Shown: in pieces, positions 16,774-60,345 of the stretch
Numbering within the stretch: the first letter of the stretch is position 1
Layout of the letters: every line of letters starts with the position of its first letter
Origin: Undaria pinnatifida
Lineage: Eukaryota > Sar > Phaeophyceae > Laminariales > Alariaceae
Direction of reading: 5' to 3'
Length of the DNA stretch: 64,000 nt
NCBI GenBank assembly: GCA_012845835.1
Contig: JABAKD010000023.1
Coordinates: 5,934,137-5,998,136, forward strand
Program-made: the position numbers and the translations under genes
The notes under the pieces: model-generated
Seen by the model: the letters and a program-made list of their open reading frames with translations, nothing else
Told to the model about the DNA's origin: nothing
The model's database searches: none

Positions 16774-17867
16774 TTACAAGGAATCCTGCTGTGCGTCGTC
16801 ATCTGCCACAACGTCTCGACATGGACGAGTGCAGTTTGTGGTTTCCCCTCTACTATCACTCAAAACCAGCGCTGGGTGAACTGACTTCACCTGGTTAAAA
16901 CACACCGCGTGCGAGCGGTGGACAGACGGGAATATCTGCTCCACGGTTGTTTTTTGACCGAGCCAATCTTGGGCCAATAGCACGGCTTGACCCACTACCG
17001 CGGCAATCAAAAACATATTCGCTGAGATTAGCACCCACCCGAACACCGATAGCGCCCCAAACTCGTCATCTGACTCGTTTGCTTTCTTCAGGAGGGCAAC
17101 GTACATGCCGGCTAAGACTACGATATTCCCCCACCGGTACAGGTTCATATCCACCCTCCTTTCAAACGGTGACAGATACTCCGAAATGAACAGGAACAGT
17201 GCCGCGAGTGAGAGCACAACAGCTATCTGATTAATGCTGTTGGGGGCGATGTACACTGACGACATTGAAATAGTTAGCCTACGGCAGTACTCGATTGCCT
17301 CGTAGTAGTATCGTGATGGCCTGTACGTGCTCCAAATACTCCTGAATGGTTGGAGGTGCGCCATCGTTTCTCTGTCAGCCGTCTGAAGGTGTTTTCGGTT
17401 TCGCACAAGCCACATACCTAAACATACGGGAATGCCGACCGGGTACACGATAACCATCAGGAGAGCGTAAATCTCGTACGATCTATGCTGGCTGGTTGTG
17501 CATGAGATGTTATAGTCCGCCTTAAGGGGGTAAAACACGCAAGCCTCATCGCAGATGAACGTCTGAAATAATGACGACGAAACCGAGGAGTAAACGAAGA
17601 ATGCAACAAACAGTGATGCAGAGAGATGCCTGTTTTGAATTGTTTCGATATACTCGGCAGACCCGCAGTTGGTTCGCTTGCCGACGTAGTACGCGACGCC
17701 CAGTACGGCGAACACCACCAGCGGTGCGATCGTCACAAGCAGGAGACGACCGTAGAAACTAGGGTAAAACAGGCACGAGTAAGAAGCGATATAGCTGATG
17801 TCGAAGTTGGCCAAGGTGAGGTACGACAGGAACACCTCGTACTCCTCTGGATAGACGTCTTCAACAA
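16774..17867 (-). CDS. Exon 8: polytopic membrane domain and C terminus
   Basis: The acceptor GCTGCAG|TTGTT joins in phase 1 to give WQIFS-VVEDVYPEEYEVF. Hydrophobic helices lie at about residues 615-637, 656-678, 705-729, 785-806, 817-834 and 845-876. The loop between helices carries a basic/aromatic stretch (STYRPSRYYYEAIEYCRR), a feature of these families. The tail after residue 876 is hydrophilic and ends at TAA (16776-16774) within TTGTAAG. An in-frame CAG|GTGAAG at 16,890 could act as an alternative donor, so the last 38 residues are less certain than the rest. Confidence 0.85.
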
Positions 17868-20800
17868 CTGCAGCAAACTAACGTAAACCACGGTGGGCAG
17901 CATGAATGACGGCAAGGATGTGAGTTAGCATACGTGCATCTGCGGCTCAGATATAGCGTGTTGCGTGGTAACCATGTCTCAAAGGTGCTTGGCTCGAGTT
18001 TATCGAAGGGAGGCTAGAACTCATGTTCCGTGCAAATTGTTGCACGCAGCTTCGATAACAATATTGGAGAAGACTAGGTGTCGTCGCCGTTAGAGGTGGG
18101 GGCACGAAAACAAAACACAAGTAACCTTATTCATCCCTCCCCCCTACCCCAAAACACCAAACAATACCGGTCATGTGACGTTCTAAGGTCTTGGGCCATT
18201 ACCGCAAAACAAATTACTTGTGTGTACAAGCTTTTCCCGAGGCTTGTCGATGCCCTCGTCTTTCGCTTGTACCGTAGTTACACAGGAAAGTTTGTCGCTT
18301 CTAAATACACTTGGCCAGGCACACTTATTGTCGATAGTGTTTATAGCGCTTGCGGCCTCACATGACTCAAAACCTCCGATTTCAAGGGCGGCAAGGAAGC
18401 ACTCTTCAAACAATTCCGGATTAATCGAATCGCCTCCACAACAAATAGGGGGGGAGACGGAGATACCATAGCAGTGCGACTAGCGTGCGACTAGCGTGTG
18501 ACATAACAGCGCAATACTGTGTGTGATGGCCGTATCAATGTGAACCCGCTCGTAGACAAAGTTGATGAGTCGTTAGTCACCATAATATTTCCAGCCATGG
18601 TAAGAAAATGTCAATGCTGAAAGTGTCCCAGTTGTGGCGTATTCTGTTGTTGAGGAAAGTTATGCAGCTCAACCAAAACAATCCATTCGACAGAGGGTAT
18701 GCTCGACCGAAAGCTGACACGCTAATGCAAAGCAAACACCTTCTTCCGATATTATTCGTCGACGCTTCAATTCTTGTTTGTTTTTTGCCCTTATAACCAA
18801 TAGGCCATGCTCTAGTACCTTACTTAGCCGAGCGGATACATGTTCTGGAAAAACGTCGTGTCTCTGCGGGAAGTGGCGATCTAGCCAAGTCCGCAGCCCG
18901 AACGAGGAAGGGTGTTGTTCTACGTGCTGATACACCCCCCGAAATGATCATAGATCGGTTGTGTGTGTTTTTGCACTGTCGTGTGCGCGTGGGCGAGGGT
19001 CAAGTAGAAGGTCTCGCAGGGTTTGACCGTATTCTAACAGCAGGACGCGCTCCTGTACAGTTGCAATTGGAAGTTATGTAGTGAAATATTACGTATGTTT
19101 GGGTACCGTAAGTAGTATAGCAAATATTTGCATGCCAGTGTGGGGCGTAGATAGTCGCCTCATACCCTAAATCCGAAAAGGTGCAAGGGCATGGTTTTAG
19201 ACATAGGGATATGACATATTTAATCTGTGCGCCCTCGCTTGAAGATTGGAGTTTTCATTGTGTTGAAGCCTGATTAACTTATTTAGCTAGACTGCGAATA
19301 TGTATATATATGTTATCATAGAGCGATATTTCGGCAGAGTGTCCCTAGCATCTGCTATGTGCTGATCGACCCAAGCCACGGTAGGGGGGGCCCCTTTTGG
19401 GCCTTTCATTTCAGTGGCTAGGGGTCACTCGCGCGAGTAACCCCTTTGTTCCTATGCAATCTTACGTTTTCTTTATGTTTTATATTGACGAAATCAATCC
19501 GCAATGCAAAGGTATTCTGAGCTGCGGCAAACCGAGTTCCTAAACCATCTTCATTCGTAGGCTACAGAGCTACTCGTGCGAGTGGCTTAAACACACCAGT
19601 GAAAATGGGGGTACCCCCTCTATCGTAGCCTTGGTCGATCACTCTGTTTGTGTGCTTTGTATGAAGCATCGTTCATCTATGTTCTTATTGCAATACGTTC
19701 CGGTCTCGAGGCCAGCTTGCACTATACCGTCGTTGTTTTCGTCGATACTTTACGCGCCCCATGCAGCGACCGTTCGAACATCGGCAAACACGTGCATCTT
19801 TTATTTCGGACCTGTTGTCTTCTTCACAACATTTTTTTAGGCGACTACGATTACTGCGTTGACGGCCCCGCCGGATAACCATGCGTTCTTAATTTAACGA
19901 CCACTGCACTAGGTACTGTCCACCACAACCAAGCCTACCATTGGCGTCTGGTGATCTGTCTCTGGAATTTGGCTGCAGGCTTTTTCCTCTGATCGTTGCC
20001 TGACGGTTACTGCTTTTTTCAACGCGGAAGCACGCCACACATCAATGACGCCATGATATATGCAATGCCGATGGTTCAAATTAATCCGATACGTATACGA
20101 CGAGTGTATGGGTTCATCAATATCTAGCACCACGAGTGAAATAGGCCAATCTAGATGACCTTCGGCCGACACCGCTGGTGGCAAATAGTCACGAGAAGAG
20201 AGGCACGACAACAATTATCCTTGTCAAGGGTATGCCACCGCCGGACAAACATCCGTTGCAACGAGTACCCTTCGCAGGTAGTATGCTACGGACGACACTC
20301 CCATCTGGGCCACGATTCGCCACGGAGACTGCATGCGGGTGATTCTACCATGCCCCCCTCCCAAACCGGTGATATTCTTTAACGTTCCATGGTTTCCCGA
20401 CACGAGGAACGGTGATATAAAGCAATTGTCTCCATGTACTCTCATTTTTGCAAAGGAACATCGAACGATGACGTCGGCGTGGCAAGGGGCACCGTAGTTC
20501 AGGAGATACCGCCGGGAGCTGGTGTCGAAACGAGATATTTCATTAAGGAATAGTTTGTGGGGCTACCTCACAATGACTCATGCGACCGCCGAAAACTCTG
20601 CCAACAAGCACCCCCGCAAGCAGTATGCGTGCACCGAAATCATCCAGCACCCAGCAGTGCTTCATACCTGAAAAAATCTGCCACACAACCACGACGATCT
20701 TGATGGCAGTTAGCGGCAGTGCCTTCATCAATAAGCCCTGAAAAGAATACCACCTTCGCTTGATGATCCCTTGGGTAGGTGTCAAACGTTTGTCGTCTGC

Positions 20801-23800
20801 CGTCCTCCCCAAGTGCTTCAATATCGCCGTTGTAGCCAGAAGAAACCCTAGGGCTACGGCTGAAGCCACCGCCATTGCCCGCCACTTGTCCCTTTCAGAA
20901 CAAAGTCGGCAGCTGTAGTCGAGCCCCGGCGAATATCCTTCCGAGCAAGTGGCACAATCTGTATTTGGAATCCGGGGAGAGTCGGCCGAGCGGGCGTAAC
21001 GAGGCGATAATATGGATTGATGCAGTACGGCGACAAGGTTTTTGTGGCTGCGGAGGGTTTTATCGACGTCCCGTACAGAGATTCGATGAAAGTGCTTGAT
21101 GCAGATGAATTTACGCGGTTATTCTGAAACGTTGCCGTTGAGCCTTCGGCTGGATAGTGCCGTCGCAGAAAATGAGCCTTCCAACTTAGGTTATAATATA
21201 CAGCAGGTTTCGATCATGTATGCAGACTGGCCGTCTACACTATATAAACAAATACGTACTCGCCCTGCCGTGTCCGTTCAGCACATCGACGTGAACGCGG
21301 ACGGATTCTACCCGTGGTGATTTTTTTTTTGCCACACTTCTACTTTCGAGCTTCTGGACGTGCAAGCCTTGATCACAGGTGTCGTTTTTTTCTCCCCCCC
21401 TTGTTATGGCCTTCATGTTTTTGGGGCGCATAGGGTTCAGCACCCACTGATCGTCGACATTACATCGAGTGTTGCAAACTCAGGCTCTCGCGCTTTCCGC
21501 AAGTCAATTAGTGCACAAGAAAAAGCCCCACAAAAATATATACGAGTAAGAACTCGGGGGATTCGAACTCACGAAATTGACCTAGATACCAGGCTCGAGG
21601 AAAACTTTATTCGCCACCATGGCAGCGAGTGATAAAGAGCCGATCGCCCCGGTGGTCTATTGGGGTTACACTGCTATGCTATGAAATAGCGTTGGTCCTT
21701 TAATTTTTTAACCACGGCGTTGTGAGCTTTGTTGGTTTTATTTATTTGCAAGGAAACACGAGAAGAAAAGGATAAACTAACTGCTGAAATCGGCTAGCAG
21801 CGTAGGTACAATTCGACGCCAATCGTCGAGGGAAGAAAATGCTGAATTCTTCTCGCGATAAAAAAATTTGGGCATGTACCGTATTGGTGATGGGGGACGG
21901 GAGTCCGCTATATGACCCCGGGTCTGAGTTATATTAGTGGCAGGGCGAGAGTAGTGTCAGCATCACCATAAACGGGATGGGAAAATGAAAAGTGGTGAAG
22001 TGTATTACTGCTGCTGTAATAATACGGTACCCAAGCAAGTTGCACCGATCTACTCGATCTGGACCGCCTGCTGTATATTGTGCAATTGGTCCATGTACAA
22101 CTTCTCTAATCACAGGACGGTATGAAATGATTGTCATTGAACTCGCTGAACTTCTTAGTGAGTGGTGGTTTCTTCTATCCACGAACCCCGGCCGAGCCAA
22201 TCAATCGAAGGTTGGGTTACACTGCGGAGTGGTATCAACGCAGGGGTCAAATGAAATGTGCTAACCCGAGCACCGCGGGGTTGGGGTATACGAATAGAAA
22301 TTCAGCAGTAACGCGAGTCGCCCAATTTTTTCCTAGTTGAAAATACCTTGAAGGATTTCTGAACCGGGGTTAGACCGTGTTCTGTGGTGCTGGCGTTGTA
22401 TACGAACCTCAGCTAGCTAAGGCTTCCACACCGTGCGGAGTGGTGTCGACCCGGGAGAAGTCGGCTTTCGTCCCCGGTTTGTTGCAGTTGATAGGGTATG
22501 GCAGAAGTTCTGGAACGGGGGTGGAGCCCTATTGCCATCGGGTGCGTCGGAACGCCCCCCGCCGGTTTGCTGGCCTACATCTTCCCTGTATGTCCCTGGA
22601 TCTACGAGCTGCACAGACACTCAACGATAAGCAAATGTGAACAATAGATGATTGTTGCACATCGGGCGGGGTTTTGTCGATCCGCGGGAAAAACCGGATA
22701 TCGTCCCCGGTTTGTCAAAGGATTTCTGAAACGGGCACAGGACTCTTTATCCTCCCATGGTGGCGTTGCCGTTATGTCCGAGCCCCAGCCAATCAGCGGT
22801 AAGCAAATATGGTTGGAGTTCCACGTCGTTCGGAGTGATGTCTACACGGTAGGTCATTGTTTATTTTCCCGCGTTTTTGGAGCTGTAGAGATTCGCGGGG
22901 GACATGAATCGGGGATTGGTCCCTATTTTCCTCGTGTGCGACGGAAACGCCCCTCATTGATGGGCCTCTATCCGCCGAGGACAGCGATGTGAAGCTCGAA
23001 CCAATCAGCGACTAGCCAACGGGATTGGGATTTTCTCACCGTGGAGGGTAGTGTCGACCCGAGAAAGTTCCGTTTACTTCCCCGGTTGATGGAAGTTATA
23101 GAGATGTGGAACGATCTCTGGACAGGGGATGGGACCCTATATCCTTCCGAGGTGGGGCTGGCTCAACATGCGAACCATGGGCAATCTGAAAGTCAGCCGG
23201 CCGTTGGGGTGGTATTTCCATACCGTGGGGGGAGGTATCATGTGTGGATGAATTCCGATCCCGGCATGAGACCCTAACGTGCCCGGGTGACGCCTAAGTT
23301 GTGTATGAATCCTGTCCAAAGCGCGATCAGACGAAACTGACAATTGTTTTTTTGCGTCTAATAAGTAAGCTCGAGCCTGAAATACTTAGCTGACAAACTC
23401 GCAAACGCTGTAGTCGCGTATTGTACCTACGAGAAGAGTGAGCGATCTACACAGCTATCAACAAGCAGCAGCATTGCAGTAGCATTCGAAGAGTTGGGGG
23501 AAGGCAGTCATACCACCGTGTTTCGCGCCCCGAACAACGTCAGCACGTTTATCCACGATCAGACAACACACCGAGAGTCGATATGGGAGGCTCGGATCAA
23601 GATGATACCATTATAGCATGCATTGTATTTCAAAAGCTGGCTCAGTGCGTGTCTGTCAGTGGCTACGAAGAGGACACGCATCGGACATGATCAGTCACCT
23701 TACTGGCCCCGGATGATTGATGGAGTTAATCTATCATAAGAAACGCACTCGACACGTTCCGCCGCCCTACTTAAGGGTCAGTCGGCGTGTGGTCGGATTT

Positions 23801-26800
23801 ATCCGTCGAAACCTGATGAATGAAGCTCGGAATCGGATTCATAAAAAAAATGGTATCTATTAATAGTAATACATTGTTATGATTATTAGTCTATATCGAA
23901 CCCTTGGCATTATCTTACATACTGCACGTGCAGACTATGATTTGTGTGGTGACGTTTTTCACTCTACCAAGTATTTCCTGGAAAAATTCGGAGCGCTGCC
24001 CTGCCCTACAAGAAGCATGGGCACCGTCGAATGCCGGCACCCATGCGGAGCCCTGGTATATATATATATATCTCTATATTATAAAAATTAAAATACACTC
24101 CAGCTGTGAGATCGAAGATTTCGTCGAAACTCATCTTTGCAAGCTGTGTGTGATACTCCGATCGCGCGCATTACGAGTTGTGTGTCCTCATTAAGGATAT
24201 AGGTCGGCGACTCCCCTTACAACTACAGTGTAGCTATCAGGGTCAACAGGATGATTTTAGTCAGTCTGTGCGCGGAAACTATAAAACCCGTTTCTGGGGG
24301 GGACAAAATCTGACAGCTGTGAAGGGAAAGGGAGGCCTGGTTTTGATCAAAAGCGAGCGGGTTTGGAGGGGGGCGGGGGGGGGGGGGGGGGGGTTGGGGC
24401 GGGGGGGGGACGGGGGGGGGGGGTGGGGTTGGGCGGGGGGGGGGGGTTGGGCGAGGGGGGGGGTTTCGGCGGGGGGGGCAGCTCAATATGTGCCTGGAAA
24501 CTATACATTATTTTGAGGGGATAAATGTGACAGATTTGGAAATAATACATCAGTTTATCATGTATATCCTGGGGTAAGTCGTACAATCAGTGAGTAAAGA
24601 GAGGGTGGAGTGTTCGAGGGGGTGGGGTTTGGGATGGGTTGGGGGGGGAGGGTGGGGGGTGGGGGCGGGGGGGGGGCGGGGGGGGGGGGGGGGGGGGGGA
24701 GGGAAGGGCTTCAGGTGAAGGGTTCGTTATACGTGTGGTGCTAGGTCTAGGCTATATATGATCTCATTCTTCCTTTTGGGAATTCGGTCATGATATTTGT
24801 TTCGTCTCGGCCTCATTATGCGATCCTCCGGACTGGAACTTCTCGGTCAAATAGCTTCGTTTGAGCGCCGTCTTCGGGGGGCGGCTCCAATGCCCCGCGC
24901 CCTGCCGTATCCGTTCCGCACCTCGACGTTAACGTTGATAGACGCTGAGCGAGAAAAGCGAGAAATGCGTCTATTTTTGTATTTCGGGCGGTATACGCCC
25001 GAGCTACTCTTGGATCTTGGCATGTGTTGAGCATGAACGAATAAATAAGTGTTGAGGTATTAGTCTAGTGGGTTATTAGTCCGTTTGACCACTTGCAAAA
25101 GGTTAACCAATAGCTTACCCAAACTAAACCTTATAACACTCTCCCCCCCTGAAACGGCGGGATAGCAGGTCGGCCGGACGTACCGGTGGACCTGTCAATA
25201 CATCCAACCCGTATCATTTCCTGGGTATGCCGGGGAGAGTATTTTTCAAGTTTAACATTCGGAAAATCTGAAAAAGTTTATTATGTACGGCGGATGTGGG
25301 ATTTGAACCCACGACCCCGAAAAAGCATGCTCTGTCGACGACGTCATATGCTATGTTATAGATGGGGGACACAGATTGCCCCCTGCAGGTTTGCCAATTG
25401 AGCAGGTCCTCGGATAGTACTCAATTTATTTTCCTTCGTAGAGACGTTGCTTTACTCGATTCCACCAGAGCCCCGGACAGCTTCTGAGATCGGAGGCGCG
25501 TGACTCCGATCTATTTCCTACCTTTTCGGAATAAAAAACGCCAACCTTATCATACAAAACCCATCCAAAGTATCTCAAATTCGGAAAATTACAGGCCTTT
25601 CGAGGCCGTGTCTTTACATAAGGGACATCGTTTCCAAATTGGCATCATTTCCAAAATTGGCATCTGACTTTCTTCCTGACGATGCTTTTTTCATGGCCGC
25701 CTCTAAGCGCTTGTCCTATCGTAGCTACTACTACTGTTGTGCGTCGTTCACTGTCGGCTCAGTGGGTATAGTGCTATATATCCAACGAAGGACGTGTCGT
25801 GAGTACGATTCTCGCTCAGACCATATTTGGTATTCAGGAGCGTGCGCCCTGGAAACGTTATGAATGGTTATGGTAGTGGTTAGAGTTCTCTTGAGTACTG
25901 TTAACTGTATTAAAATAAGAGGCGATTAGACTGATTCTACGATAGCCCCCCCAAAAACCAGCGGTTTTCTTTAACGAACGTTTCATGGCTGCTCGACACG
26001 AGGAAGGATGCTATGAAAAGAGTATCTGCAAATATTGTTTTGTTTGGGGAGGACTATCGAACGATGACGTCAGGGTGGCAAGGGGCACCGTATTTCAGGA
26101 GATACGGCCTGGAGCTGGTTTCAAAACCGGCGATTTCGTTAAAGAAAAGTTGGGGGGGCTACCGTAGAACCACACGATAGCTCTATAGATCCCTCGTGCG
26201 AAGTCGGTGCCAGTTTATCAGCGAACTCGAAAACATATTTATTGACTTTTTGCACAACCCACTCACTGTGAGTTTACTGAGTCACGTGACAATGGGTAGT
26301 GCTGTGTGTCGTGAGTTTGGTTCCCATCGACTTCATACTTGTATTTTTCAAGCTTGCGCGCTGACGGCATTCTGAATGGTTATTTTGGTAGTTTAACATC
26401 TATCTCATGGATTTAGTAGTACTATCCACCGGGCTTCTGAGTCAAGCAATTGAGTAGCTCAGTGAGCAGCGCTGTAGAATTTCTCGGCCAAATCACTTTG
26501 TTCGAAGGCTGCCGTCCAAGCGAGCAGCGGGCAAAATTTTGCATTTTGATTGGTACTCTCCAGTTATTCTTCGGATTTTGATATATGGAAAGGTTGATAA
26601 CATAACACTTGGCAAGACATTACTTCCAAACTGGCGTCATATTTTGTCCCAAAGAAAATAAAAATATTACTGCAAAAAAATCCCTATGGTACGGCGGTAG
26701 GTACACGTGCATACATACACACATCGATATAGACGTGGCAAGCGCACGCATGACTAAACGAGGAGGAGGCAGTAGCGATAACGGTTACGGCGCCAGAAAA

Positions 26801-29800: not shown

Positions 29801-30954
29801 CGTGGTTATGATTTTTAGTCTAAATCGAACTCTTGGCGTTATCTTATACATACTGTACGCGCAGACTATGATTGTGTGTGGTGGCTTTTTTTATCTAGAC
29901 CAAGACTTAGTATTGAATGGAACAATTCGGAGTGCTGCCCTGCCCTGCCCGAAGCATGGGTGCCGGCATATGCCGGCACCCATGCGGAGCCCTTCCAATA
30001 TAATTTTTTCATACATTGCAGGGAGGTAGAAATTTAGACCTGTAATGGACGGTCGCCTGCAGGTGGTAGTCTAGGCCTATTGTGCGATCGTCTTAAACTG
30101 TGGCGCCGTCGAAGACTTTATTCTGCAGTGATCTTGGCCGCCGTGGGTACAACCCTGGTTTGATTCTACGGCAACTTTATGTCCTTCTGGTCACGTATCT
30201 CCCAAACCTTAAACATCTTACTCTATCACGACCAGAGCTGATAAAGGTGAGGTCCAGAATTTCAATGGCTCTACCTTACATTTTGATTTTGGCATAACGC
30301 GCCTAGTCCAACCGCTATCTAGGACCTCGTGAGAAAAAGAGGCAACGGCATATGCTTCAAATCGTCTTCATCTGCCATCGCCGTTGGTGCGGACGTACGA
30401 TCAAAAATGATGCTGTCATTCGATAACGGCCTCCTGTGCTGCACCTGTCGGCAAGTATATGATATAATTAACCCTTAATATTTTCGTAGGTATCTGTCAG
30501 GCACAACGTTTTAGGCGCAGCAGTCCTCCCGATCCAAGTGGTAATGGTAAGTAAACCAGCTGGTGGGTTGATTCCAGCACGCACGACTGCTGGGCGGGTG
30601 GGTCTTTTGTCTTATGCACCGCCTGTCCCCGGGATTGTTTTTCTCTATTCACTTGTGGTAAGTATGCGATTATTGTAAATTAAACTGGAGTAGACAGGTC
30701 GGCCGCTTCTGGGCTTCGAAAAACAAACTAGCCCTGACGCCGGCTCTGCGCTGTTGCTGGGCTACTACCGGTGTAGTTTGGGCTGCGGATAATGCTCTGC
30801 GCGGTTGCTCCTGCTGCGACAGTACACCGGTCCTACGACATAGCCCTCGGTTGGTCGAGCGTCCTGTATGTTGTTGCGGTTGCTGTATGTTGTTGCTGTA
30901 CGTTGTTGCTGTATGTTGTTGCTGTAAGTTGTTGCTGTATGTTGTTGCTGTTGC

Positions 30955-31033
<79 letters not shown>

Positions 31034-34000
31034 GCTGTTGTCGTTGTTGTTGTCGTTGTTGTTACTGCTGCTGTACGTACTGCTTGTATTCCGCTGGTGC
31101 GCCCGCGCTACGCTATATCATACCTTGCACGTAATACTTGGTATTAACCGGACAAATCAATTGGCAGTAGTAACCGTCTGAGTACCCATTATCACGTGCG
31201 AGTATCAGCATATGACTTCCTTTTGCAAATATCGCATGACGACACAGATCAATTACGGTTGAAAATGTTTGCTTCTAGGACCGATACAAAGCTCCCCCAT
31301 ATAGCTAAGACTATCACTAACGACGTAGATGTCATGTGCTTCATGCTCATCGTCATATATCCAAACTCAACATTCATGCCCGTCCGACATTCGGGCAAAG
31401 GGGCCGCCTCAAATTCGAGGTACAAACATGGGCGAAGATCGCGCAACTATAGTACGCTCACGCTATGTGGTCCCCTCACATGCACCCTGGTAGCCGATAG
31501 CGCAGTATTTGTCAGGGTCTTGGCCCCCTGTACAGGCTTCGGGGCGGTAACACTCGAGCATGTCTTCAACCCATACGAAGGGACGATAGTAGCCAGCTGC
31601 AAGTGTAAGGGTTTCGGTTGTGGTGCCGCCCGATCGAGCATCGGTTCCTTTGGGTAGCTCCTTGCAGACGGGGGTTTGCGAGTCGACAGATACACCGTCA
31701 GGGATGGCAGTTTTGTCGGCCGAACATCCTTTGCACACGTTGACGAAAGTAGATACATTATCCTGTTGTCGCACCAAGAGAACACGAGCATCCGCATACG
31801 GGAATCTGTTGAGGACGGTGACCACAAACAATGCGATTGCTGTCGCCGGAGAAGATTCTTAAAGATATGCAGTAAAACTTATTCGGGGGTGTCGCAAGTC
31901 GAAAATGCGGAACACCGGCGTTCAAATCATGTGTATGTGCTACTGCCGTTCTCGCTGCGTCTGTATGCCTTTTTTTTGTTTCCTGGTGTAACAAGGTCCG
32001 ACAACACGTGTGTTATATCGCTGTTGCGTAAAATGTGAATGTGTTATCACCGTGTCTCGGACTCCTCCCCCTGCTGTGCCCCAACCACCCACGTACATCA
32101 TTGTTGTCGTACAGGCGAGAGCTTGGAGCACGGCTGCCGTTGTGCCGATGCTACGGAACTGATGTTGTATTGCTGTGTGCATGCTATTGTGTACTGATGC
32201 TGTGGCTGCGACGCTCAGCGGCTGCTGTTGAAAAACGGTAACACCGCTCTTCTTGATAACTTTGTGTTCCGTTTGCCTACGTCAGCACATACTGTGACGA
32301 TACATGCAGAGGAAAACACGCATGAATACAGAAGCACCGTTCGTGGCTGTTACAAAGGAGTTATGCTGCTATAGATGGTGATGAATAGTACTCTGTATAG
32401 CGGGCGGCAAAGCGGAGCGGGGCTAAAACAATTTGAGAGCGGAGCACGCTATTATTTACGGGAGCGCGAAAACTCAAGGCTTTTCGATGCACCTGTCTGT
32501 TTCAATGAAGCGGAACACATCTCCTTCGTGAAAAACGCCAGTTAGTTCAGCGACGTTGAAAGCTCTAAGCACCACGACAGAGCTCGGCTAGGATGCAGAC
32601 ATGCGTCGTAATGTACCGACGGTTAGCTTGCCCACCCCGAAGCCAACGTGTGAGTAAAGACCCTCGGCCGCCCGAGAACAGCATGCCAAAACCTAAACGT
32701 GCATTCTTGACATAAACAACGTCTTTACTACAACCAATGCAAGACGTGTGCTACGATAGCGGAAGCATTTCAGGGACGATCTATATATTACGGTTGGAGT
32801 TTTTCAACCGAAGAACTACGCAATACCGTTGGATTCCGGTTACGATTTACGATAGGTTTATCTCATACCTACGCGTGCGAGTAGACCATCAGGGTGATCA
32901 TTGTGTGGAGCGTATCACTTTTGTGAAGTACACTTATGCGGCGATGTGTAGAACTGCTAGCGTGAAGACTCTTGCATTCACTACGTGCATCCTTACTGTG
33001 CCGTATCATGCGTATCTTGGGCGACAAATGTTACGATCACCGGTCGTGCCTTTTTTAGTACTCATTCCTGAACAAACCAAGAGCAGATCCTACTACACAT
33101 CACACCACAGAATCGGCTATTACTTGTCATAACTCGATTGCGAACATATTATGTACGTGGACCAAGCCCATAGTCGTATGCCCCTTCAACATGGCGTCCG
33201 TTCCCGTCGAGTCCACCGCGGCTTGCATGCGCTTCTCACCAAAGACTCATAGGTTGCATACTGCCCGAGAGGACAATACAAAGCGTTTCCCCAGAACCCG
33301 ACGTTGCCAAAGCGAACCCTCGACGATGCACAAACACTGGCGATTGCCATGCCCTCGTCGCCGGCCCTGTTGGCCGTGAAATTCGAGCTGTACACTTCAA
33401 GGATCCCAGCCAGATAGATCGCCCCCCCCGAAGTCCCTGTTACATTACGGGGCAAAACGACTGTTGTTTTGGAAGAGCTACTGGATTATTAGGTATATGC
33501 GTACTGCAAACCAAACTTCTGATGATGTTGTTGGCATCTGGAACGCACCAAAGAACGTGTCAACCGTTGTTGTCATTTAAGGTTCGAGGAATCTTTTTAC
33601 AAGGCTCCAGTTGAACGTTTATTTGGCCACTGACATACCACCCACCCAGCAGCACAACCGTAAACGGTGTCACTCGAGTCATGGTCAGCCTGTTTACGGT
33701 TCAGGAGGGTTTAATACAAATGGGCACCTCGAAGGTAAATACCAGACGTTTAATGTTTGTGAGAAGATGTCCCATCTCGTCCATCTTAGCCTTGCGTGGA
33801 AAATGGGCACAAGGCACCACACGTTAATCAGCCTTTGCTCATTTTTTTCTCCACCCTGCTCTGCAACAGCTGCTGCTGAGATTCCTTACCGTGCGGTCAA
33901 CCTGTCAGAAATAAAACTTCGTTGTGCAGGTTTGTCGCAAGACGATTGTGAACCGTTTGCGCCGTAATAACTTACTTGCGTAGTTTCCGTAAAAGGTGGA

Positions 34001-37000
34001 GCCATTCACGATGTCAAGCCCCGCTTCGTCGTACAAGTAGATCGCGCCACCGTTTGTAGCCGTGTTGTCCTCAAACATGCAGTTCCTGTATTCCCTGACA
34101 CTACTGTATGCTGGGGAAGCCATATATATGGCACCTCCGCAGTCAGCGGTGTTTGATGTAAACACCACATCGCTAACATTCACTTCATTCGGTTCATCGA
34201 AAAATATGGCACCTCCTTGGTACTGTGCTGCATTCCCGGTAAAGATTGTGCTCCTTCCAATCGAAAGGGTGCTACGTCCGGCGGAGAATATCGCACCTGC
34301 CGAGAATCGATTCGGAATCAAACATATAGGACGTAAAGGTGTCTTTCCAGTCAGGGTAAACTCCGGGGTGTACAAGGGGGGCCTCGCCGAGGCGAGCTGA
34401 CACCCGCATACGGCTCCGGGCACACCCGGCATAGTCGGGGACGTGAAAGGCAAGTCGACCAAAAAGTCACCAGGTACTGCCAAACGGTTTAGGGAAATAG
34501 AAACAGTGGCAAAACGTACTGCCAAGGGGTTGAGGAATTACGAAACAAACGGGATAACATAGGTGAGTAACTCAATAATGGGGAGAGTCCTAATTCAGAA
34601 GGTAACGGATAGAACTAACAACCTGAATGGTCAGGCGGAGTCGAACGTGCAACCACCCAATCTGGCACGAAAGCACCAATATGAATGCAGTAGAATTTCA
34701 TAAGTAAAATGTGAAAATGGCGCATGGACACGACACCATCATCGAACATCCCGTGCACGGAAAGCCACAGGCATGCGTCAACACGGTGTTGTGACCACAA
34801 TGGGTGTGTGCAGGCCCCGTTTTCTATTCGAAGACATGCAAAGGTGACACCAAAGTGTCCGTTAAGATACCTTGTTATGAGGAAGAAACGGGACAGTTCG
34901 GAAAAGGTGTTGAGGTAAACCAGAGAGCAAAAGGAAAGAAGGGAGACTGGTCATGGTGGGCTGGATTGCCGCTAAATCATCACCGAAAAATGCCCGCAGT
35001 CCGGTGAAACATCGGGAGTTCGGGACAACCTTAACGTACTCAAGACTACCTTTAGATCAAAGTTTCACCTAAAATTCAACGTAATATTCGACGTAAGTTT
35101 GAACTGATTATCTTGTTCCGTGCGAATAAAAACATCGCTTCTGGTATTGAGCTGCATTACGCGAAGGTTGTCCGTAGTGGTTAGACTGTTTCCACAAAAA
35201 AAAAAGTAACATGCATTGGTCCGGCTATCGCATCGGCGGTTGGTTCCTTTCCTCGAGAAGACTCTTTGGAGAAGTACACGGGGTGTGGAAGGCGTCCGTT
35301 GTTATTGCTGTGGCGCCTGTCTCCGTTCCTGAAGTGGTCGTGTTAGTACGTAACTGACAATATAGATGGGCGATCGATATTGTAGTACGCAGCTTGCAAA
35401 ATGTGAGTATCGACTCTAGCTTATCGCCTAACTCACAGCTGAGGTCATAAGATTTGTTTTTTTTAAAATGTTGTGTTGCTTAGACTAGTACATGACGTGC
35501 TCCATGCTGCTGACTGCTGATTGAGAATCTCTAGTGAGTTATATAGAGCCGGTCGCCCGGTGGTCTAGTGGCTGCCCTTGATTACTTCTGTCGTTGGTCT
35601 TTGAAATTTATTTCCACCGTTGTGAGATATTTCACTTTTCTATTTGCAGAAATGCAGAAAAAAAATCAAGACACAAGCAAGTGCTTAGAACGCCTAGCAG
35701 CGTGGGTAGGTACACATAGGTAGACGCGAATCGGCGAGAGAAGAAAATGCTGCATTCGCGCGAAAAAAATTCAAGCATGTACCGTAGTGGGGACGGGGCA
35801 GGAGGGCCCGCTATGACCCCGGATCTGAGCTATACTACTGGGAGGGAGGGCGAGAGTAGTGCGAGGATAATAAATGGGATGGGAAAAAAAGCGATACAAT
35901 ATGAGAACATCTTTCAGACAAGCTACACCAACCAGCAATTACAGCAGAGTACACGTACAGTGGGGGTATTCCGATTCAAATTAACTCTGTGACAAGCCGA
36001 AGCAGACGCTCATTGCTTTTATTTGTTGTCAGGGCAATATATTATGGCTGTTCATGTATGCCGAGACATGTCGATGTGACTGCTCTTGTATCCCGGACGG
36101 CTTTATCTTTGAGACATTCTGGACACCAACTAGTGATATATAGATTACTTCCTGAGGTCAAAGCGTTTTGTAAGAATTGCGGTCGCATGGCGAATCTTTG
36201 CCGTGCGCGAGTAGTATTCATGAAACCTGAGAAAAGATTAGCGAGCTTAGTCAGGTTTCACCATCAGCGAATGAGATCGAAATGTTCAGCAAATGTTGTC
36301 GTTGTCGCCTAAGCAACAAAGAGGTGCTTATGCACAGCAAGTATTGCATGATTATTCCACCATTATTATGCGAGTCAAATAGGCACTCCTTTGGCCTCAG
36401 TTCACCGTTGTTACGCTCGAGTTGTGCCAGTCTTAGTTCCACTTACCAGTAGTTATTGTTTAAAGACCTCAGTTTTGCTTAAAACAGTGCTTGTAGCCAA
36501 GGGGGGGGGGGGGATTAACCCTGGATACAAATAGTACTTGGTCCATTTATGTTGCGTTTCCTGCTGCCGTTGTTGACAAATAGTGTTTCTCGACCTCATT
36601 TTGAGCGTGCTAGCTCCGCACACCAATCTAATATATTGTCAAAATCGCCATTTTGTGCGACCCATCATACAAAAAAAAACTGGTCGAATTGCGCTCGCAT
36701 TGCGAACGTTTGCCGTGTGCGAGAAGTATGCGACAAAAACGAGTCGGTCGGTCGAAATAACTGTGAGCTATCGCAAAAATATATATATAAAAAGATATTG
36801 AGTCATACTCGCGTTCTCACCGCCATTTTCGGAGGCCGAGTTGTCGACAAATTGGGCGCGGCCGTTGATGTCAATCCTCGAGCCGTAGGCGTAAATAGCA
36901 CCTGTTTCAACGTGAATAGCGGACGAACATGCGCAATATTTGACTGATCCCCATGAATATCGTAGGAATCTTCATCCCGCGTTGGTACTACGTTCGGAGA

Positions 37001-40000
37001 CATGTTGGGTAGGGCTCTGATCCGGTGGACCTATTATTGGAAGTGATCCCGAACATGCGGCGGAACAAACAATTACCATAGGTACGGAAAGTAACGCGTT
37101 TTTCCTCCTGCCCAAATCAGGACTGTTTATATGTTGGATACCAGTAAGACGCCCCCACACTACATATATCGAATGACTGAGGGCTAGCGGGGGGTCTAAC
37201 CATCCATGTGCCTAACGCTTTTAATTCATGAAGCATTGTCGAGTAAGTAGCCTCCTTTCGACACCAATACTTCAACAGTGAACTTTCAATTTTTCCATCA
37301 TTACCGATCCTCCGGTTCCGTGGTTAAGTTTTACAGACCTGTGTAGTTGCTTCCAGTAATCATTTTTCTCCACCCCGCCCCTGTGGCCATCGTCACGTGT
37401 GCGCCGCGGGTTATGCTGTCGTGTTATGATGGCTACCTTCTTCTTCTCACTGTTGTTGTTACCATATGTTCACAGCGGGTACTGCCATTGCCCTAAGACG
37501 GCTGCCTTCCTCTTCCGTGTATGTCTGCTGGACGGATGTACAATGTAGAGCGTTCGCTACGCCGCGTTATCATTCAAGGTCTAGAAATATTGCGGAGAAG
37601 TTGCATTTTATTGTACGTACTATCTAGCCTTTTGTGAGCACCTGGGGCATGGATACACGTACATCATGTGTGGACCGTGATAGACATAACCGATTGACGT
37701 GCTGAGAGCACGAGGAAACGGGTCGTGACTGAAGGTTCTACAGCAGGGAAGGAAGATGACTGAGATATTTGCCCTGACTATGCCAGGTTGTGGGTGCCAA
37801 CCTCGTATTGCGGCTTTAGGCTGAACACGTACATCATCAGATGCGGTTAACGAGAAGCTTCGCCACGATTAAGAGGAACTGTTGGCGACGGTGGAGAACG
37901 AGGTCCTGGTATATCCCCACACTACGTGAGGCATACCCGTATAGCTCTGAGTTTTCGGGATAGCGTGGCTGTATTTATGTCACTTTAAGGCGATCTACAG
38001 CACGGGTTCTCGTACAAACTCGTCCGGCGCACTCCGACGCGCTTCCGAGATCATATTCGACCATGATATGCGACTGAATTCCGCCCTGCCTTAGTCGCTG
38101 AAGTCGCGCAGGACTAAGACGAAGCTGCACAACCCAAGGAATAACGAATACGTTCTGCTCAATACAAACTACTGTGTGACATTTAGTTTGAGATTTCAAA
38201 CCAACTACGTAAGAGAATACGATCACGGTGATCCGTACAGCGTTTATCCTGCGCCAAACACACTCAACGTTCGTCGATGGCTGGCTGTCGGCAGTGGGTG
38301 CATACGCAAAACTTATTAATCAAGATTGAATGATACTTGTTTACTCGAAAGTCGTTGTACCCCTGCGATGGGCGAAGAATACCGGGCACTTGCGTACTAC
38401 AGTAAGTACTAGAGAACATATACAACGGGTTGTCACGTGCTGTGCTTTGAAAAAAAGTTATTCCGACATTGACGGCAAAGTAACGCCCTCGAACAATTCG
38501 AAACCTCAACAACCATCTCTTACCCCCGAAGTCAGCAGCATTCCGCCCGAAGTACGTGATGCCGTCGATGTAGATATCTGAGCGGTCGGCGGCAATGGCA
38601 CCTGCGTATCCATAAAGAAGAGAAAATTCTAGCAATTTTGACGCGCGCTACAATAGAGGTGAACCACGTTTTTTCTGAGGTTCCTCGGTTCGGGAGCTCA
38701 AGGCCTCTTATCAAAAACCCGACTTGGAGAAAATTAAAACTGGTGACCGGATGAACAACCTCATCGCCTAGGTACACAACGAGGATCGTTGTATAAAATT
38801 TCCATTTTTCGACGATTTAGGGCTAAGCAACCCCGGCATTAAGAAACCGTTTCAGCCGAAAACTGCCACCTCTATTATCGAAGCATGCGTCTGTTTTGCT
38901 TGAGAGAAAGATATGCAACGGAATCGACAACAGGCCCCACGACCGCCCATCCAGATCACGCATATACAAGGTATCACGGAGAGAGCAAAAGTACACGGCA
39001 TGATACGGCGCAAAAGGACCTGAGAACTTAACACGTAACGTTTTCGTCGCCTGGTGATTTTGGGGCCCATGCATAGCGATCCAAAAAATGACGATAGCGG
39101 TGTTTTTGAAAGCGTCTGTCAGTGGCGTCAGCGCGTAGCTGTACAAGTACGATCACGCTGTACGCCCGTCCCGTCCGAGCATTTTTCACTTGCTGTCGTT
39201 CGGGCGCAGATTTTCAGCCGATTTTATCCTCATCATAAAATCAGCCGCCGACGCATCAGCGGTGATTTTTCGTCGCTAATTTTCCCCTCTTAAGCGTATG
39301 ACGTCTCAAAGGAGTCAACCTTTCTATGATATGTGCATGACAACCTAAACTTCCGATACATTTCCGCTCCTTGTAGTGTTTTATTGGGTCCTTTCGTGGA
39401 AATTCTCGGGCTATTGTAGGACACCTCGTTGTGGTAGTGGACGCGGTTGAGCAGGGAAACGCAAGGTTTGACATTCTTGTCGCAAGCGAGCGTAGAATAA
39501 AATACCAGGTACCTGGTATCCCATAAATCGTTGGCTCACCTCCTTCTGAGCACTTGTTGTTCGTGAAATCGCAGCCGAACACGTACAAGGAACTAGAAGA
39601 CTTCACCTCCACTGCACCGCCGTCATATTCTGAGAGCCCCCCCTCAAGGTGCAAGTAGTGGAGGGCTAGAGTGGACATGTTCGTCACCAAGAAAATGCCT
39701 GTTGTTTCTCCAGCATCGATTACCGCGTGATCATCACTGGTGCTGTCCGACGTTGTGCCATGAGACCCAGTGACAGTCACATTTTTTCGACCGGATATCT
39801 CAATCCTCTGGTCAATCTGCAGGCGGCCGTTCCAGGTAACGTCAAAGACACCTTCACCAGTGCACCTCAGCGCGTCGACAAACTCGCGAACGTCGTCGAC
39901 TGATGTCAAGTTGACTGAAACAATGCCAGGTGGGCACGAGTCTGCGTGTGCCGATGAGGCAAGGGTGACTGCCGACGCAGCCATAATCGAAATCATGACG

Positions 40001-40011
40001 TCAATTTTCAT
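16774..40011 (-). CDS. Beta-helix / Cys-rich / polytopic membrane protein, 8-exon gene (whole locus)
   Basis: Eight exons, in transcript order: 40011-39540, 38601-38524, 36901-36821, 34296-33976, 33436-33240, 31762-31480, 20958-20668 and 17867-16774. Every intron is GT-AG and the joined length is 2817 nt, exactly 939 codons with stop, with no internal stop in the pieces. The 938-residue product has a signal peptide, then GGAI/GAIY beta-helix coils (about residues 75-365), a cysteine-rich GYYRP...CSEGYSPG segment (about 390-505) and about eight hydrophobic helices from residue 506 to 876. It is probably a secretory-pathway or surface receptor-like protein with an extracellular beta-helix. Ligand and function are unknown. 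The architecture matches GCC2/GCC3-type multi-pass families I associate with stramenopiles (from memory, not searched). Missed small exons in the long introns cannot be excluded, but none is needed to keep frame. Confidence 0.85.
19361..19643. mobile_element. MITE family C
   Basis: The left end TGATCGACCCAAGCCACGGT and the complement of the right end TGATCGACCAAGGCTACGAT form terminal repeats of about 25 bp running into G-runs. The element is about 283 bp and lies in intron 7. The right end keeps the CTACGATAG core seen in families A and B. Confidence 0.55.
20341..20578 (-). mobile_element. MITE family B, copy 3 (decayed ends)
   Basis: It shares CCCGACACGAGGAACGG, CGAACGATGACGTCGGCGTG and GGCAAGGGGCACCGTA with the copy at 25.9 kb. 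The ends are eroded (GATTCTACCATGCCCCCC and GGGGCTACCTCAC). It lies in intron 7, 90 bp past exon 7. Confidence 0.65.
20668..20958 (-). CDS. Exon 7: Cys-rich end and first membrane helices
   Basis: Acceptor AATACAG|ATTGT, donor TTTTCAG|GTATGA, phase 1-1, 291 nt (residues about 478-574). It begins YCATCSEGYSPGLDYSC and RLCSERDKWRA, closing the cysteine-rich domain. A hydrophobic helix follows from MAVASAVALGFLLATTAIL, then a basic loop (KRRW) and ALPLTAIKIVVVVWQIFS. A MITE (20,341-20,578) sits 90 bp past the donor, in intron 7. Confidence 0.82.
21321..21622 (-). mobile_element. tRNA-derived SINE, copy 1
   Basis: Same family on the minus strand, with head GCCATGGTGGCGAATAAAG, B-box-like GTGAGTTCGAATCCCCC and a T-run at 21,321-21,330 representing the A tail. 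The head side is followed by CAGCGAG (21623-21629), matching the target repeat of the copy at 27.2 kb, so the two are the same ancestral insertion duplicated with its host repeat. The tail-side flank is unrelated: homology with the 27-kb copy stops at the tail. Confidence 0.7.
22150..23340 (+). repeat. Tandem array of about 180-bp units with CCAAT motifs, array 1
   Basis: Units share GTGCGGAGTGGTGTCGACCC, a CCCCGGTTTGTT/GAT core, GGTATGG, GGGACCCTAT and a spacer with AACCAATCAGCGA-type sequence. Recurrences of the last motif at about 22,625, 22,790, 23,000 and 23,180 give a period of roughly 170-205 bp. Short open frames through the units (for example DPGEVGFRPRF) follow the repeat, not a gene. 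Confidence 0.6.
24075..24345 (+). repeat. GATCGAAG element, copy with full left part
   Basis: It starts ATTATAAAAATTAAAATACA, then CCAGCTGTGAGATCGAAGAT, TTTGCAAGCTGTGTGTGATA, TAAGGATATAGGTCGGCGAC, CTACAGTGTAGCTATCAGGG, GTGCGCGGAAACTATAAAAC and CTGACAGCTGTG, and runs into poly-G at 24,362. It serves as the reference for the family. Confidence 0.65.
24362..24478 (+). repeat. Poly-G / G-cluster tract
   Basis: Runs of 7-16 G separated by single T, A or C or short spacers. A second tract is at 24,610-24,712. Both lie in intron 6, where the transcript (minus strand) carries C-runs. The proline- and glycine-rich open frames through them are artefacts of composition. Confidence 0.85.
25270..25640 (-). 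repeat. Dispersed element with tRNA-like 3' half
   Basis: The minus strand contains ACACGGCCTCGAAAGGCCTG, a hairpin GGAGTCACGCGCCTCCGATC, CTGCTCAATTGGCAAACCTG (A-box-like) and GTCGTGGGTTCAAATCCCAC followed by ATCCGCC, a well-formed T arm and acceptor strand. The matching 5' acceptor strand is absent. The first part is shared with 54,525-54,785 in the opposite orientation. Confidence 0.55.
25932..26172 (-). mobile_element. MITE family B, copy 2
   Basis: Inverted copy of the element at 3,541-3,783. It starts TGATTCTACGATAGCCCCCC and ends GGGGGGCTACCGTAGAACCA. Internal matches include CACGAGGAAGG, GAACGATGACGTCAGGGTGG and GGAGATACGGCCTGGAGC. It lies in intron 6. Confidence 0.7.
27188..27499 (-). 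mobile_element. tRNA-derived SINE, copy 2, with 7-bp TSD
   Basis: On the minus strand it starts CCCCGGTGGCGTATGAGGTT (A-box-like) and has a B-box-like GTGAGTTTGAATC about 50 bp further. It ends in an A-rich tail (GCCAAAAAAACAAAAGC). The direct repeat CAGTGAG flanks it (27181-27187 and 27500-27506). The related repeat at 35,211-35,895 has a single AGTGAG at the same place with no insert, an empty site. Pol III transcription from the internal boxes is expected for such elements (family knowledge). Confidence 0.8.
28040..29270 (+). repeat. Tandem array of about 180-bp units with CCAAT motifs, array 2
   Basis: Counterpart of the array at 22,150-23,340 with the same unit order. CCAATCAGCGATAAGCCAAT (28,660) and ACCAATCAGCGACTTGCCAA (28,872) show the spacer motif, and GTGTCGACCCGAGAAAGTTC (28,925) shows the unit start. 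The order of units is kept between arrays, so the array was duplicated as a block rather than expanded twice. Confidence 0.6.
29954..29985. repeat. Perfect 32-bp palindrome
   Basis: GCATGGGTGCCGGCAT is followed immediately by its reverse complement. It lies at the right end of the 3-kb unit. The equivalent site in copy 1 (about 24,016-24,047) is an imperfect version with mismatches in the left arm. Confidence 0.85.
30880..31072 (+). repeat. TTG microsatellite with GTTGTTGCTGTATG minisatellite
   Basis: First about six GTTGTTGCTGTATG-type units (30,880-30,955), then about 25 uninterrupted TTG triplets, then interrupted TTG/TCG. It lies in intron 6, about 400 bp downstream of exon 6 in the direction of transcription. 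Confidence 0.9.
31480..31762 (-). CDS. Exon 6: cysteine-rich (GCC2/GCC3-like) segment
   Basis: Acceptor CAACAG|GATAAT (phase 0), donor GCAT|GTGAGG (phase 1), 283 nt. Motifs include VCKGCSADKTAIPDG, a CKELPKG segment, then AAGYYRPFVWVEDMLECY, ACTGG and YCAIGYQGA. The GYYRP...C...C spacing is that of extracellular EGF/ephrin-receptor-like GCC repeats. The split codon T|AT with exon 7 restores GYQGA-YC, the expected continuation, so the very long intron 6 reads as a true intron rather than a gene boundary. Confidence 0.8.
33240..33436 (-). CDS. Exon 5: last beta-helix coils
   Basis: The acceptor GTAACAG|GGACT joins in phase 1 to exon 4, giving ...NYA-R-TSGGAIYLAG. Two further coils follow (VYSSNFTANRAGDEGMA and VRFGNVGFWGNALYC), then CPLGQYATYESL. 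Donor TTG|GTGAGA leaves in phase 0. The CPLGQY element probably marks the end of the beta-helix and the start of the cysteine-rich region. Intron 4 upstream is only 539 bp, the shortest of the gene. Confidence 0.8.
33976..34296 (-). CDS. Exon 4: four beta-helix coils (107 residues)
   Basis: Acceptor TCGGCAG|GTGCGA, donor GCAA|GTAAGT, phase 1-1, 321 nt. Four consecutive coils are visible, starting GAIFSAGRS, GGAIFFDEPNE, GGAIYMASPAY and GGAIYLYDEAG. Each closes with an FxxN-x-A type turn (FTGNAAQ, FTSNTAD, FEDNTAT, FYGNYA). These are right-handed beta-helix (pectate-lyase-like / polymorphic membrane protein-like) repeats. The open frame extends further upstream to 34525, but that part lies before the acceptor and lacks coil motifs. 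Confidence 0.85.
35211..35895 (+). repeat. 3-kb dispersed unit, copy 3 (partial, empty SINE site)
   Basis: This matches 26,938-27,187 joined directly to 27,500-27,880: CGAGAAGACTCTTTGGAGAA, CTGCTGATTGAGAATCTC, AGTGAGTTATATAGAGCC, CGGTGGTCTAGTGG and GACCCCGGATCTGAG. It ends before the 180-bp array. It lies in intron 3 of the beta-helix gene. It preserves the state before the SINE insertion seen in copy 2. Confidence 0.7.
36821..36901 (-). CDS. Exon 3: single beta-helix coil (27 residues)
   Basis: The exon lies between acceptor GAAACAG|GTGCT and donor GGCG|GTGAGA, 81 nt, phase 1-1. It encodes GAIYAYGSRIDINGRAQF followed by VDNSASENGG, the canonical coil pattern with an Asn-x-Ala near the turn. 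It has no ATG-initiated reading frame of its own, so simple ORF finding misses it. It is recognised only by the repeat motif and the matching splice phase. Confidence 0.8.
38524..38601 (-). CDS. Exon 2: single beta-helix coil (26 residues)
   Basis: Acceptor ACGCAG|GTGCC and donor GGGG|GTAAGAG bound a 78-nt, phase 1-1 exon. It encodes one coil beginning GAIAADRSDIYIDG and ending RNAADFGG. The leading Gly codon is split across the junction with exon 1, so each coil starts G-[GA]-I. A short MITE (about 38,640-38,891) lies immediately upstream of this exon, inside intron 1. Confidence 0.8.
38640..38891 (+). mobile_element. MITE family A, copy 4
   Basis: GACGCGCGCTACAATAGAGG ... CCTCTATTATCGAAGCATGC, with CGCCTAGGTACACAACGAGG inside. 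It lies in intron 1 of the beta-helix gene, 38 bp from exon 2. Confidence 0.65.
39540..40011 (-). CDS. Exon 1: signal peptide and first beta-helix coils
   Basis: The start ATG at 40011 follows GCAGCACC, giving A at -3, and is preceded by a GTG that would add only four residues. Residues 1-28 form a signal peptide: a hydrophobic MISIMAASAVTLASSAHA core with likely cleavage near AHA. Downstream come a Cys pair, an N-terminal cap and the first coils, with motifs TVTGSHG, HYLHLEGG and DGGAVEVKSSSSLYVFGC, typical of parallel beta-helix strands. The exon ends ...SEGG at donor G|GTGAGC (intron base 39539) in phase 1. The region just upstream holds a C-rich run on the coding strand (about 40,088-40,100). 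No TATA box was recognised. Confidence 0.85.
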
Positions 40012-59374: not shown

Positions 59375-60345
59375 TCACCGTGCCAGCTGATTCACGTCAT
59401 AGAAGATGCCATACTGCGAAACTTCTGCGAGATTCACGATGGTACCCACGACTGACTGACACCACCGTTTTCCTTCCTCGTCGAGAAGATTCTTCTCCGG
59501 TTTTTTAATCGAAAGTGCCCGTCCCGCTCCTGGGACTACAACCCCTATTGCAAAGCTCTCGACAATGTCCTCCGTGTTGTCTTTTCGGTCGATGGGGGGC
59601 ATCCCAATTTTTGCGGTCACGACCTACGTTCATGCCGAGCACCCTCGACACGTCGCTCATGTACCTGTCATCTCGAAACGCCTAAAAAGTTGTCCCTCTG
59701 TTGAACTTGTTATGCAGCTATAGCAGCTGCTTGTTTGCACCCAGTAGAAGAACACTATCCATGTACAGCATACAAAAATAACAATACCAATGCCATCTTC
59801 GAATGCGGAAACGCACTGGTCCGGTTTGAGTGGGCAGAACCTGATCTGGCGATGTGATGGTCCATAGTGCCCAAACAATTCCTCGGACTGTGCCGGAGAC
59901 AGTACAAACTCATGTTTGGCTTCATCACAGGAGAAACTCTGGACCTGTCTGGTATTTCCTTGCCGGGGGCCATCTTGACAAAAACGTCTTCCTCCACGTC
60001 GACGTTCAGCAATTCCTTCTGGACGTCAAGCATAAACGCCTCGTACTCCAGGTCTGTCGCGATCACCAGCATCATGCGGATCCTCTGACGTTTCCATACG
60101 GGGGCGAAGGTGCCGCCGTAGTCAATCGCAGGGACTTGAGGCTATACTTGTACGACTAGAGGGCTTGATACGTGCCACCTGCCTTGGTAATGTTTACCCG
60201 CTGCATGTCGATCACCCTCTGTCCTGTCGGGACTGAAGTGATTGGTATCAGATTGAAGACGTCGTGCTTCTTCAGGCTGGCCACAATCCTGTCATATGCC
60301 GCCTTTCAACGCGACGCTTGTGGAAGGCCCATATCCTCCTAGAAG
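59375..60345 (-). pseudogene. copia reverse transcriptase relic
   Basis: Recognisable blocks in order: KKHDVFNLIPITSVPTGQRV (about 60,270), DLEYEAFMLDVQKELLN then VDVEEDVFVKMAPGKE (about 60,060-59,960), SLYCLRHSPRNCLGTM (about 59,900), and the catalytic box region with YMDS at 59,765-59,754 where YVDD is expected. Both positions 2 and 4 differ, and the second Asp is lost. Two more stops follow. RWCQSVVGTIVNLAEVSQY and YDVNQLAR mark the connection domain, and similarity then ends abruptly at 59,375. The RT cannot be active. Confidence 0.8.

Follow-up and report, generated by a model that had tools for sequence, protein, structure and literature searches.

The stretch of the Undaria pinnatifida genome analysed here (64,000 nucleotides, called the window throughout; positions 5934137-5998136 of the contig labelled C30 in a 511-Mb, 68-contig assembly) carries on its minus strand one member of a large family of genes for membrane proteins, in which some exons encode a single coil of a predicted beta-helix. 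We give roughly even odds (about 0.5) to the reading that the members of this family combine a signal peptide, a beta-helix rod assembled in part from such coil exons, a Cys-rich stalk and a membrane domain distantly similar to TRP proteins, and that they have a role in sensing. The exon-per-coil design is the main interest of the gene and had been overlooked in the initial annotation, a hand reading of the locus, which did recognise a real gene and place its exons nearly exactly.

Gene structure and family

Rebuilding the exons from the DNA bore out the eight-exon model, all seven introns being GT-AG, and the joined exons amount to 2,817 nt, or 939 codons including the stop TAA, for a protein of 938 residues (Table 1). 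The junctions from exons 1-2 to exons 6-7 agree in position and phase with those of paralogs (three genes read, with some junctions unavailable in some of them), and relatives of exon 1 elsewhere in the genome show 38-55% identity. Several exons had been described as invisible to the calling of open reading frames. This is true of two, exons 3 and 5, and then only when frames are cut off at 100 residues; the remaining six lie inside listed frames. The gene had also been called complete; this is likely, although the last junction is in doubt.

Across the genome 48 copies of the last exon were scored, counting that of the window; this is a lower bound (there were 630 candidates at first look, and the 49th scored row proved to be exon 1). 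When 52 of the 80 exon-6 rows and 58 of the 64 exon-7 rows were placed against these copies, 47 of the 48 had their nearest exons 7 and 6 upstream, within 20 kb and on the same strand, with none on the wrong strand; exon 7 of the 48th lies at C52:14251546, among the rows omitted from the placement. Since exons 6, 7 and 8 stand in line in so many copies, it is unlikely, as judged from genomic order, that exons 1-6 and 7-8 belong to different mRNAs. What does not survive is the picture of a single gene spread over a remarkable 23 kb: the gene is one of many, and 10.5 kb of its span is a single repeat-swollen intron. The 47 copies of intron 6 that were measured run from 0.2 to 10.5 kb, with a median near 0.68 kb; the window's, at 10.5 kb, is long because it contains two interspersed repeats; the search for copies of these repeats scored 27 of 22,329 candidates, so that their copy numbers are lower bounds. 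A compact paralog on C22 accommodates exons 4 to 8 within about 5 kb.

The family is enriched near contig ends. Counting the 47 copies on large contigs (a copy on the 0.2-Mb contig C9 was dropped), 19 lie within 350 kb of an end, where 1.9 would be expected from these contigs, or 4.4 if the ends of all 68 contigs are counted (p = 1e-8). The excess is present at other limits, with 5 copies inside 50 kb against an expected 0.3, 5 inside 100 kb (0.5), 14 inside 200 kb (1.1) and 25 inside 1 Mb (5.3). It persists when copies are collapsed into clusters, 14 out of 32 of which fall in the 350-kb zone where 1.25 were expected. Among the 17 contig ends fetched, nine bear TTAGGG/CCCTAA repeats (two of them with five units only), one consists of N throughout, and no such repeats occur at five ends near family copies or at either end of C30; the window gene itself is internal on its contig. 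The densest cluster seen comprises ten last-exon copies in 3.7 Mb (C61:815295-4477088), on a contig whose first 400 bases are N.

A beta-helix rod with single-coil exons

The predicted protein opens with a hydrophobic stretch (residues 3-21 by hydropathy), and the motif GGA(I/V) occurs in it eight times at a spacing of 26-29 residues. The Pfam family Chlam_PMP (PF02415) recognises six stretches with an E-value of 9.2e-17 (59.8 bits, cut-off 20.6), and an AlphaFold2 model of exon 4 (105 residues, with a predicted local distance difference test score, pLDDT, of 92.6) has 12 strands, three short ones in each of the stacked coils, as in a right-handed beta-helix. The beta-helix ectodomain, Cys-rich stalk and multi-pass membrane domain that had been proposed for the protein are supported. 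Neither the entire protein nor the profile of exon 8 found a match when searched by sequence against solved structures. Chlam_PMP had no match at E<=0.001 when searched across the genome, we think because one 19-residue repeat cannot reach that threshold. Matches to the pattern in bacterial and archaeal genomes (55) and in viral contigs (9) yielded no confirmed relative. Another candidate domain, DUF7630, was weak in the window protein (0.36), had no genome-wide match at E<=0.1 and was dropped.

Exons 2 and 3 are one coil each, flanked by phase-1 introns that fall within the second Gly codon of GGAI. With just these two single-coil exons, the window copy is short-armed. A hidden Markov model (HMM) of the coil was applied to every candidate stretch of 63 to 105 nt in phase 1 that stands between AG and GT; from 40300 to 16700 this gave 327 candidates and seven non-overlapping matches above 6 bits, all of them coils of the gene model, with one match of 8.6 bits on the opposite strand and none at 9 bits on either strand of the remainder of the window. 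The neighbouring, divergently oriented paralog (C30:6033690-6063897) has four single-coil exons and one weaker candidate, and two of these exons, counterparts of exon 2 of the window gene, are tandem duplicates of 417 bp with 92.3% identity, intron included. In a paralog on C27, near a contig end bearing TTAGGG repeats, 14 single-coil exons stand between exons 1 and 4; eleven measure 81 nt, two 78 nt and one 84 nt, and two of the 14 score near the threshold. On the antisense strand of that stretch the window-coil HMM found no match and a wider HMM one, thirty Markov sequences of the same length gave two, and a control scan of the locus L053 gave none; phases 0 and 2 of the sense strand returned 3-5 matches of mixed length, so that phase 1 is in clear though not absolute excess. 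Four coil exons lie in the 30 kb of the C22 paralog that were read from exon 4 to exon 1. Exons 2 and 3 of the window gene and the 14 exons on C27 thus agree in having a near-fixed length (78-84 nt) and a symmetric phase (phase 1). Because single-coil exons lie in phase 1-1, coils could be gained, lost or skipped without breaking the frame or the fold, and reading a genome of this kind by its open frames misses many ectodomain exons of the family.

The last splice junction of the window gene

It had been claimed that every junction restores a family motif. This fails at the last one, drawn as IFS/VVED (slashes mark the junction), where relatives read Q-I-x-x-Q/F-x-x-(I or V). Among the fetched relatives whose match extended to the end of exon 7 or the start of exon 8, exon 7 ends in W (or L or V)-Q-I-x-x-CAG/GT, phase 0, in all 22 rows (20 distinct genes), and exon 8 begins with AG/TTY, phase 0, in all 30 (29 distinct genes). 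The window retains the family acceptor, TTAG/TTT at 17877, but relative to the 22 paralog rows it lacks two bases at the 3' end of exon 7, which throws the family junction out of frame. The junction as first drawn uses a CAG acceptor ten bases downstream (17867), which restores the frame with four residues fewer than in the family; it is one of 19 frame-keeping pairs of donor and acceptor in the stretch tested, some of which combine the family acceptor with a later donor. We regard this junction as doubtful: either the copy works with a shifted last junction, or it is newly damaged, or the assembly contains an indel.

With an assembly indel, the true sequence would have the family junction and the gene would be ordinary and intact. 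In its favour, a run of T precedes CAG at the site and all other parts of the gene are intact; we consider it possible with the odds against it. We think it unlikely that the window copy is a young pseudogene, in which the two-base difference in exon 7 would have put the family junction out of frame and the rest would be intact only since the damage is recent. Such a history would be compatible with our explanation for the family as a whole, and it would agree with the constancy of the CAG/GT end in the 22 paralog rows, with a repeat-filled intron 6 that is the longest of the 47 measured, and with stops inside 6 of the 48 last-exon matches of the family. However, all other exons of the window gene are open with splice sites placed as in paralogs, splice options that keep the frame exist, and the branch of the window gene is barely longer than that of its neighbour (mean exon 8 identity to 24 others of 0.499 and 0.505, respectively, the window being lower in 16 of the 24). 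Comparison of the two genes gave nonsynonymous (dN) and synonymous (dS) divergences of 0.243 and 1.191 for exon 8, a ratio (omega) of 0.20, with omega of 0.33-0.42 for exons 1, 2, 3, 5, 6 and 7 and 0.47 for exon 4, these values being simple counts from one gene pair in which the coil exons are short. Taken with the near-equal divergence of exon 8, they argue that the window gene was under constraint until recently at least.

Membrane domain, proposed function and known systems

About eight membrane helices had been predicted. The multi-pass character stands, and hydropathy gives seven clear segments from residue 506 onward, with two further helices suggested at low confidence by the exon 8 model. 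TRP (PF06011, which we take to be the fungal Flc/Pkd2-type TRP family) matches 6 of 26 family members, the best at 0.0016, and genome-wide it has four places at E<=0.1. In three of these the match lies a short distance downstream of an exon-7-like match in a distant relative, and one of the three, on C24, exceeds the profile's cut-off (3.0e-5). One of these relatives, L056, matches the exon 8 profile at 2e-102 and TRP at 3.8e-6, where its 26.4 bits fall under the cut-off of 28.5. These profile matches point to a likely TRP-like origin of the wider family, the window copy itself not scoring. We know of no case of a beta-helix ectodomain in PF06011.

As far as can be read from the predicted proteins, members of the family would begin with a signal peptide, followed by a right-handed rod of GGA(I/V)...FxxN coils, some of them contributed by single-coil exons 78-84 nt long; after a Cys-rich stalk comes a membrane domain, distant kin of TRP, with some seven to nine helices. 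'Sensor or adhesion protein' had been the initial designation, and, like a place at the cell surface, it is inferred. In the mechanism that seems most likely, the rod may bind polysaccharides or cell-surface ligands in or outside the wall, the stalk could relay strain or binding to the TRP-like core, and the core might admit cations or signal otherwise; differences in coil number and sequence would give members different specificities.

The proteins could instead serve in adhesion or wall anchoring and not in signalling, their membrane domain being a mere anchor. The rod does resemble carbohydrate-active folds (pectate lyases, PL6 alginate lyases), and the Pfam scan found no known signalling domain, but the last membrane exon is the most constrained of all, at omega 0.20, and has 44 invariant columns in an alignment of 26 sequences, beyond what an anchor needs, and relatives show the distant TRP relation; we judge a purely adhesive role rather improbable. 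A membrane-tethered lyase or epimerase would account for the overall fold, which the listed structure chains of pectate and alginate lyases share, but it is highly improbable, with no enzyme family in the Pfam scan and identities to the lyase chains of 4-19%.

Several observations weigh against the sensing role and the architecture on which it is founded. The reading is built from genomic sequence, the last junction of the window gene departs from the pattern seen in its fetched relatives, and the stops noted above mean that some family copies may be dead. Exon 8 of the window gene has no good match in Pfam, TRP included, and in the family DUF6338 (6 of 26 members, best 0.00021) and 7TM_GPCR_Srv (2 of 26, best 0.0015, none in the window copy) equal or surpass TRP in E-value. 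Foldseek with the exon 4 model gave no match at E<=0.001, and an AlphaFold2 model of the exon 8 membrane domain (pLDDT 49.6) was too poor to be used. Exon-per-coil arrays are not universal in the family: a paralog on C36 has no coil exon in the 6 kb scanned, and distant relatives apparently carry several coils in long uninterrupted frames. Finally, positive selection, which a rapidly diversifying recognition domain might show, was not seen in the single pair tested.

Among known systems, the Pmp proteins of Chlamydia are bacterial autotransporters with a C-terminal beta-barrel, whereas the window protein has membrane segments of alpha-helical type by hydropathy and no autotransporter match in Pfam, and its gene has introns between coils. 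The two have in common GGA(I,L,V) and FxxN repeats, which form beta-helix coils in Pmp proteins according to PMC11166332. A closer parallel in gene design is offered by brown algae themselves: PMC11378527 describes ROCO genes in which every leucine-rich repeat (LRR) occupies its own 72-bp phase-2 exon and exons are shuffled and alternatively spliced, and it cites NB-ARC-TPR genes, candidate immune receptors, as likewise shuffling repeat exons. As in LRR-ROCO genes, the unit here is one repeat per exon, of fixed length and symmetric phase (72 bp and phase 2 there, 78-84 nt and phase 1 here), with exon gain and loss, which that source proposes to diversify binding. LRR-ROCO proteins join their LRRs to a ROC-COR GTPase core, whereas the present family has beta-helix coils, a Cys-rich stalk and attachment to the membrane, and the Pfam scan of the whole window protein finds no ROC-COR, GTPase or NB-ARC core; NB-ARC-TPR proteins differ in their TPR repeats and NB-ARC core, and the passages of PMC11378527 on them mention no membrane domain. 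In arthropod Dscam, too, alternative exons stand in arrays and encode a recognition domain outside the cell, which there is of Ig type and alternatively spliced (PMC11378527). By analogy, the beta-helix family appears comparable to the LRR-ROCO and NB-ARC-TPR genes; among the open-licence papers listed in searches on brown algae or stramenopiles, on beta-helix terms and on subtelomeric families, none dealt with a beta-helix family of this sort.

In the literature consulted, the case for a diversifying recognition system in seaweeds has rested on families with one exon per repeat (LRR-ROCO, and NB-ARC-TPR as cited in PMC11378527). If a membrane family of the same design and an unrelated repeat were to join them, exon-per-repeat diversification would be a broader brown-algal strategy, and the family would supply a candidate surface sensor. 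It is conceivable, and we offer it tentatively as a doubtful proposal, that this is a third brown-algal repertoire of the exon-per-repeat kind and the first at the cell surface, in which coil exons (14 in one gene, 4-5 in another) would be variably spliced onto a TRP-like signalling core, in genes partly clustered at contig ends, for surface immune or self-recognition. Another large brown-algal family, 'imm upregulated 3', is named in PMC4421812, PMC3652789, PMC6909449 and PMC7929912, with reports that vary between upregulation in gametophytes, female-biased expression in Fucus and high expression in juvenile sporophytes (PMC4421812, PMC3652789, PMC6909449).

Table 1. Exons of the window gene and associated features (window coordinates; exon lengths in nt).
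Feature	Position	Strand	Length	Description
Exon 1	39540..40011	-	472	Start codon and signal-like hydrophobic segment, then N-terminal region and first coil; donor in phase 1
Exon 2	38524..38601	-	78	Single beta-helix coil; phase 1-1
Exon 3	36821..36901	-	81	Single beta-helix coil; phase 1-1
Exon 4	33976..34296	-	321	Four coils
Exon 5	33240..33436	-	197	Final coil and the region after it; enters in phase 1, leaves in phase 0
Exon 6	31480..31762	-	283	Cys-rich stalk, first part
Exon 7	20668..20958	-	291	Cys-rich motif CxxC, then membrane segments 1-2
Exon 8 as first drawn	16774..17867	-	1,094	Remaining membrane domain and C-terminal tail, stop TAA
Ten bases of exon 8 by the family acceptor (TTAG/TTT)	17868..17877	-		Excluded by the frame-keeping acceptor
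Interspersed repeat in intron 6	21306..24059			84-88% to at least 10 long copies elsewhere
Second interspersed repeat in intron 6	26176..29994			81-85% identical to 10 or more long copies elsewhere, of which seven are almost full-length

Elsewhere in the window, a long triplet-type microsatellite at 30662-31107 gives rise to poly-Val/Leu/Thr open frames, and at the window's edge a reverse transcriptase fragment (59755-60141, minus strand; RVT_2, 2e-13) and a weak zinc-knuckle frame (62740-63072, minus strand), scanned as separate pieces, probably belong to a copia-type retroelement. The EsV-1-7 cysteine repeat, which is expanded in brown algae, has 150 scored places in the genome, drawn from 2,164 candidates; every one of the 150 exceeds the curated cut-off, and many are on C30, the contig of the window. 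The repeat was matched in none of 14 control genomes, in keeping with a brown-algal source. A recurrent GAIAADRDL... frame seen at four other loci (L001, L002, L004 and L008) is unrelated to the coil motif and is presumably the reverse transcriptase of a mobile element.

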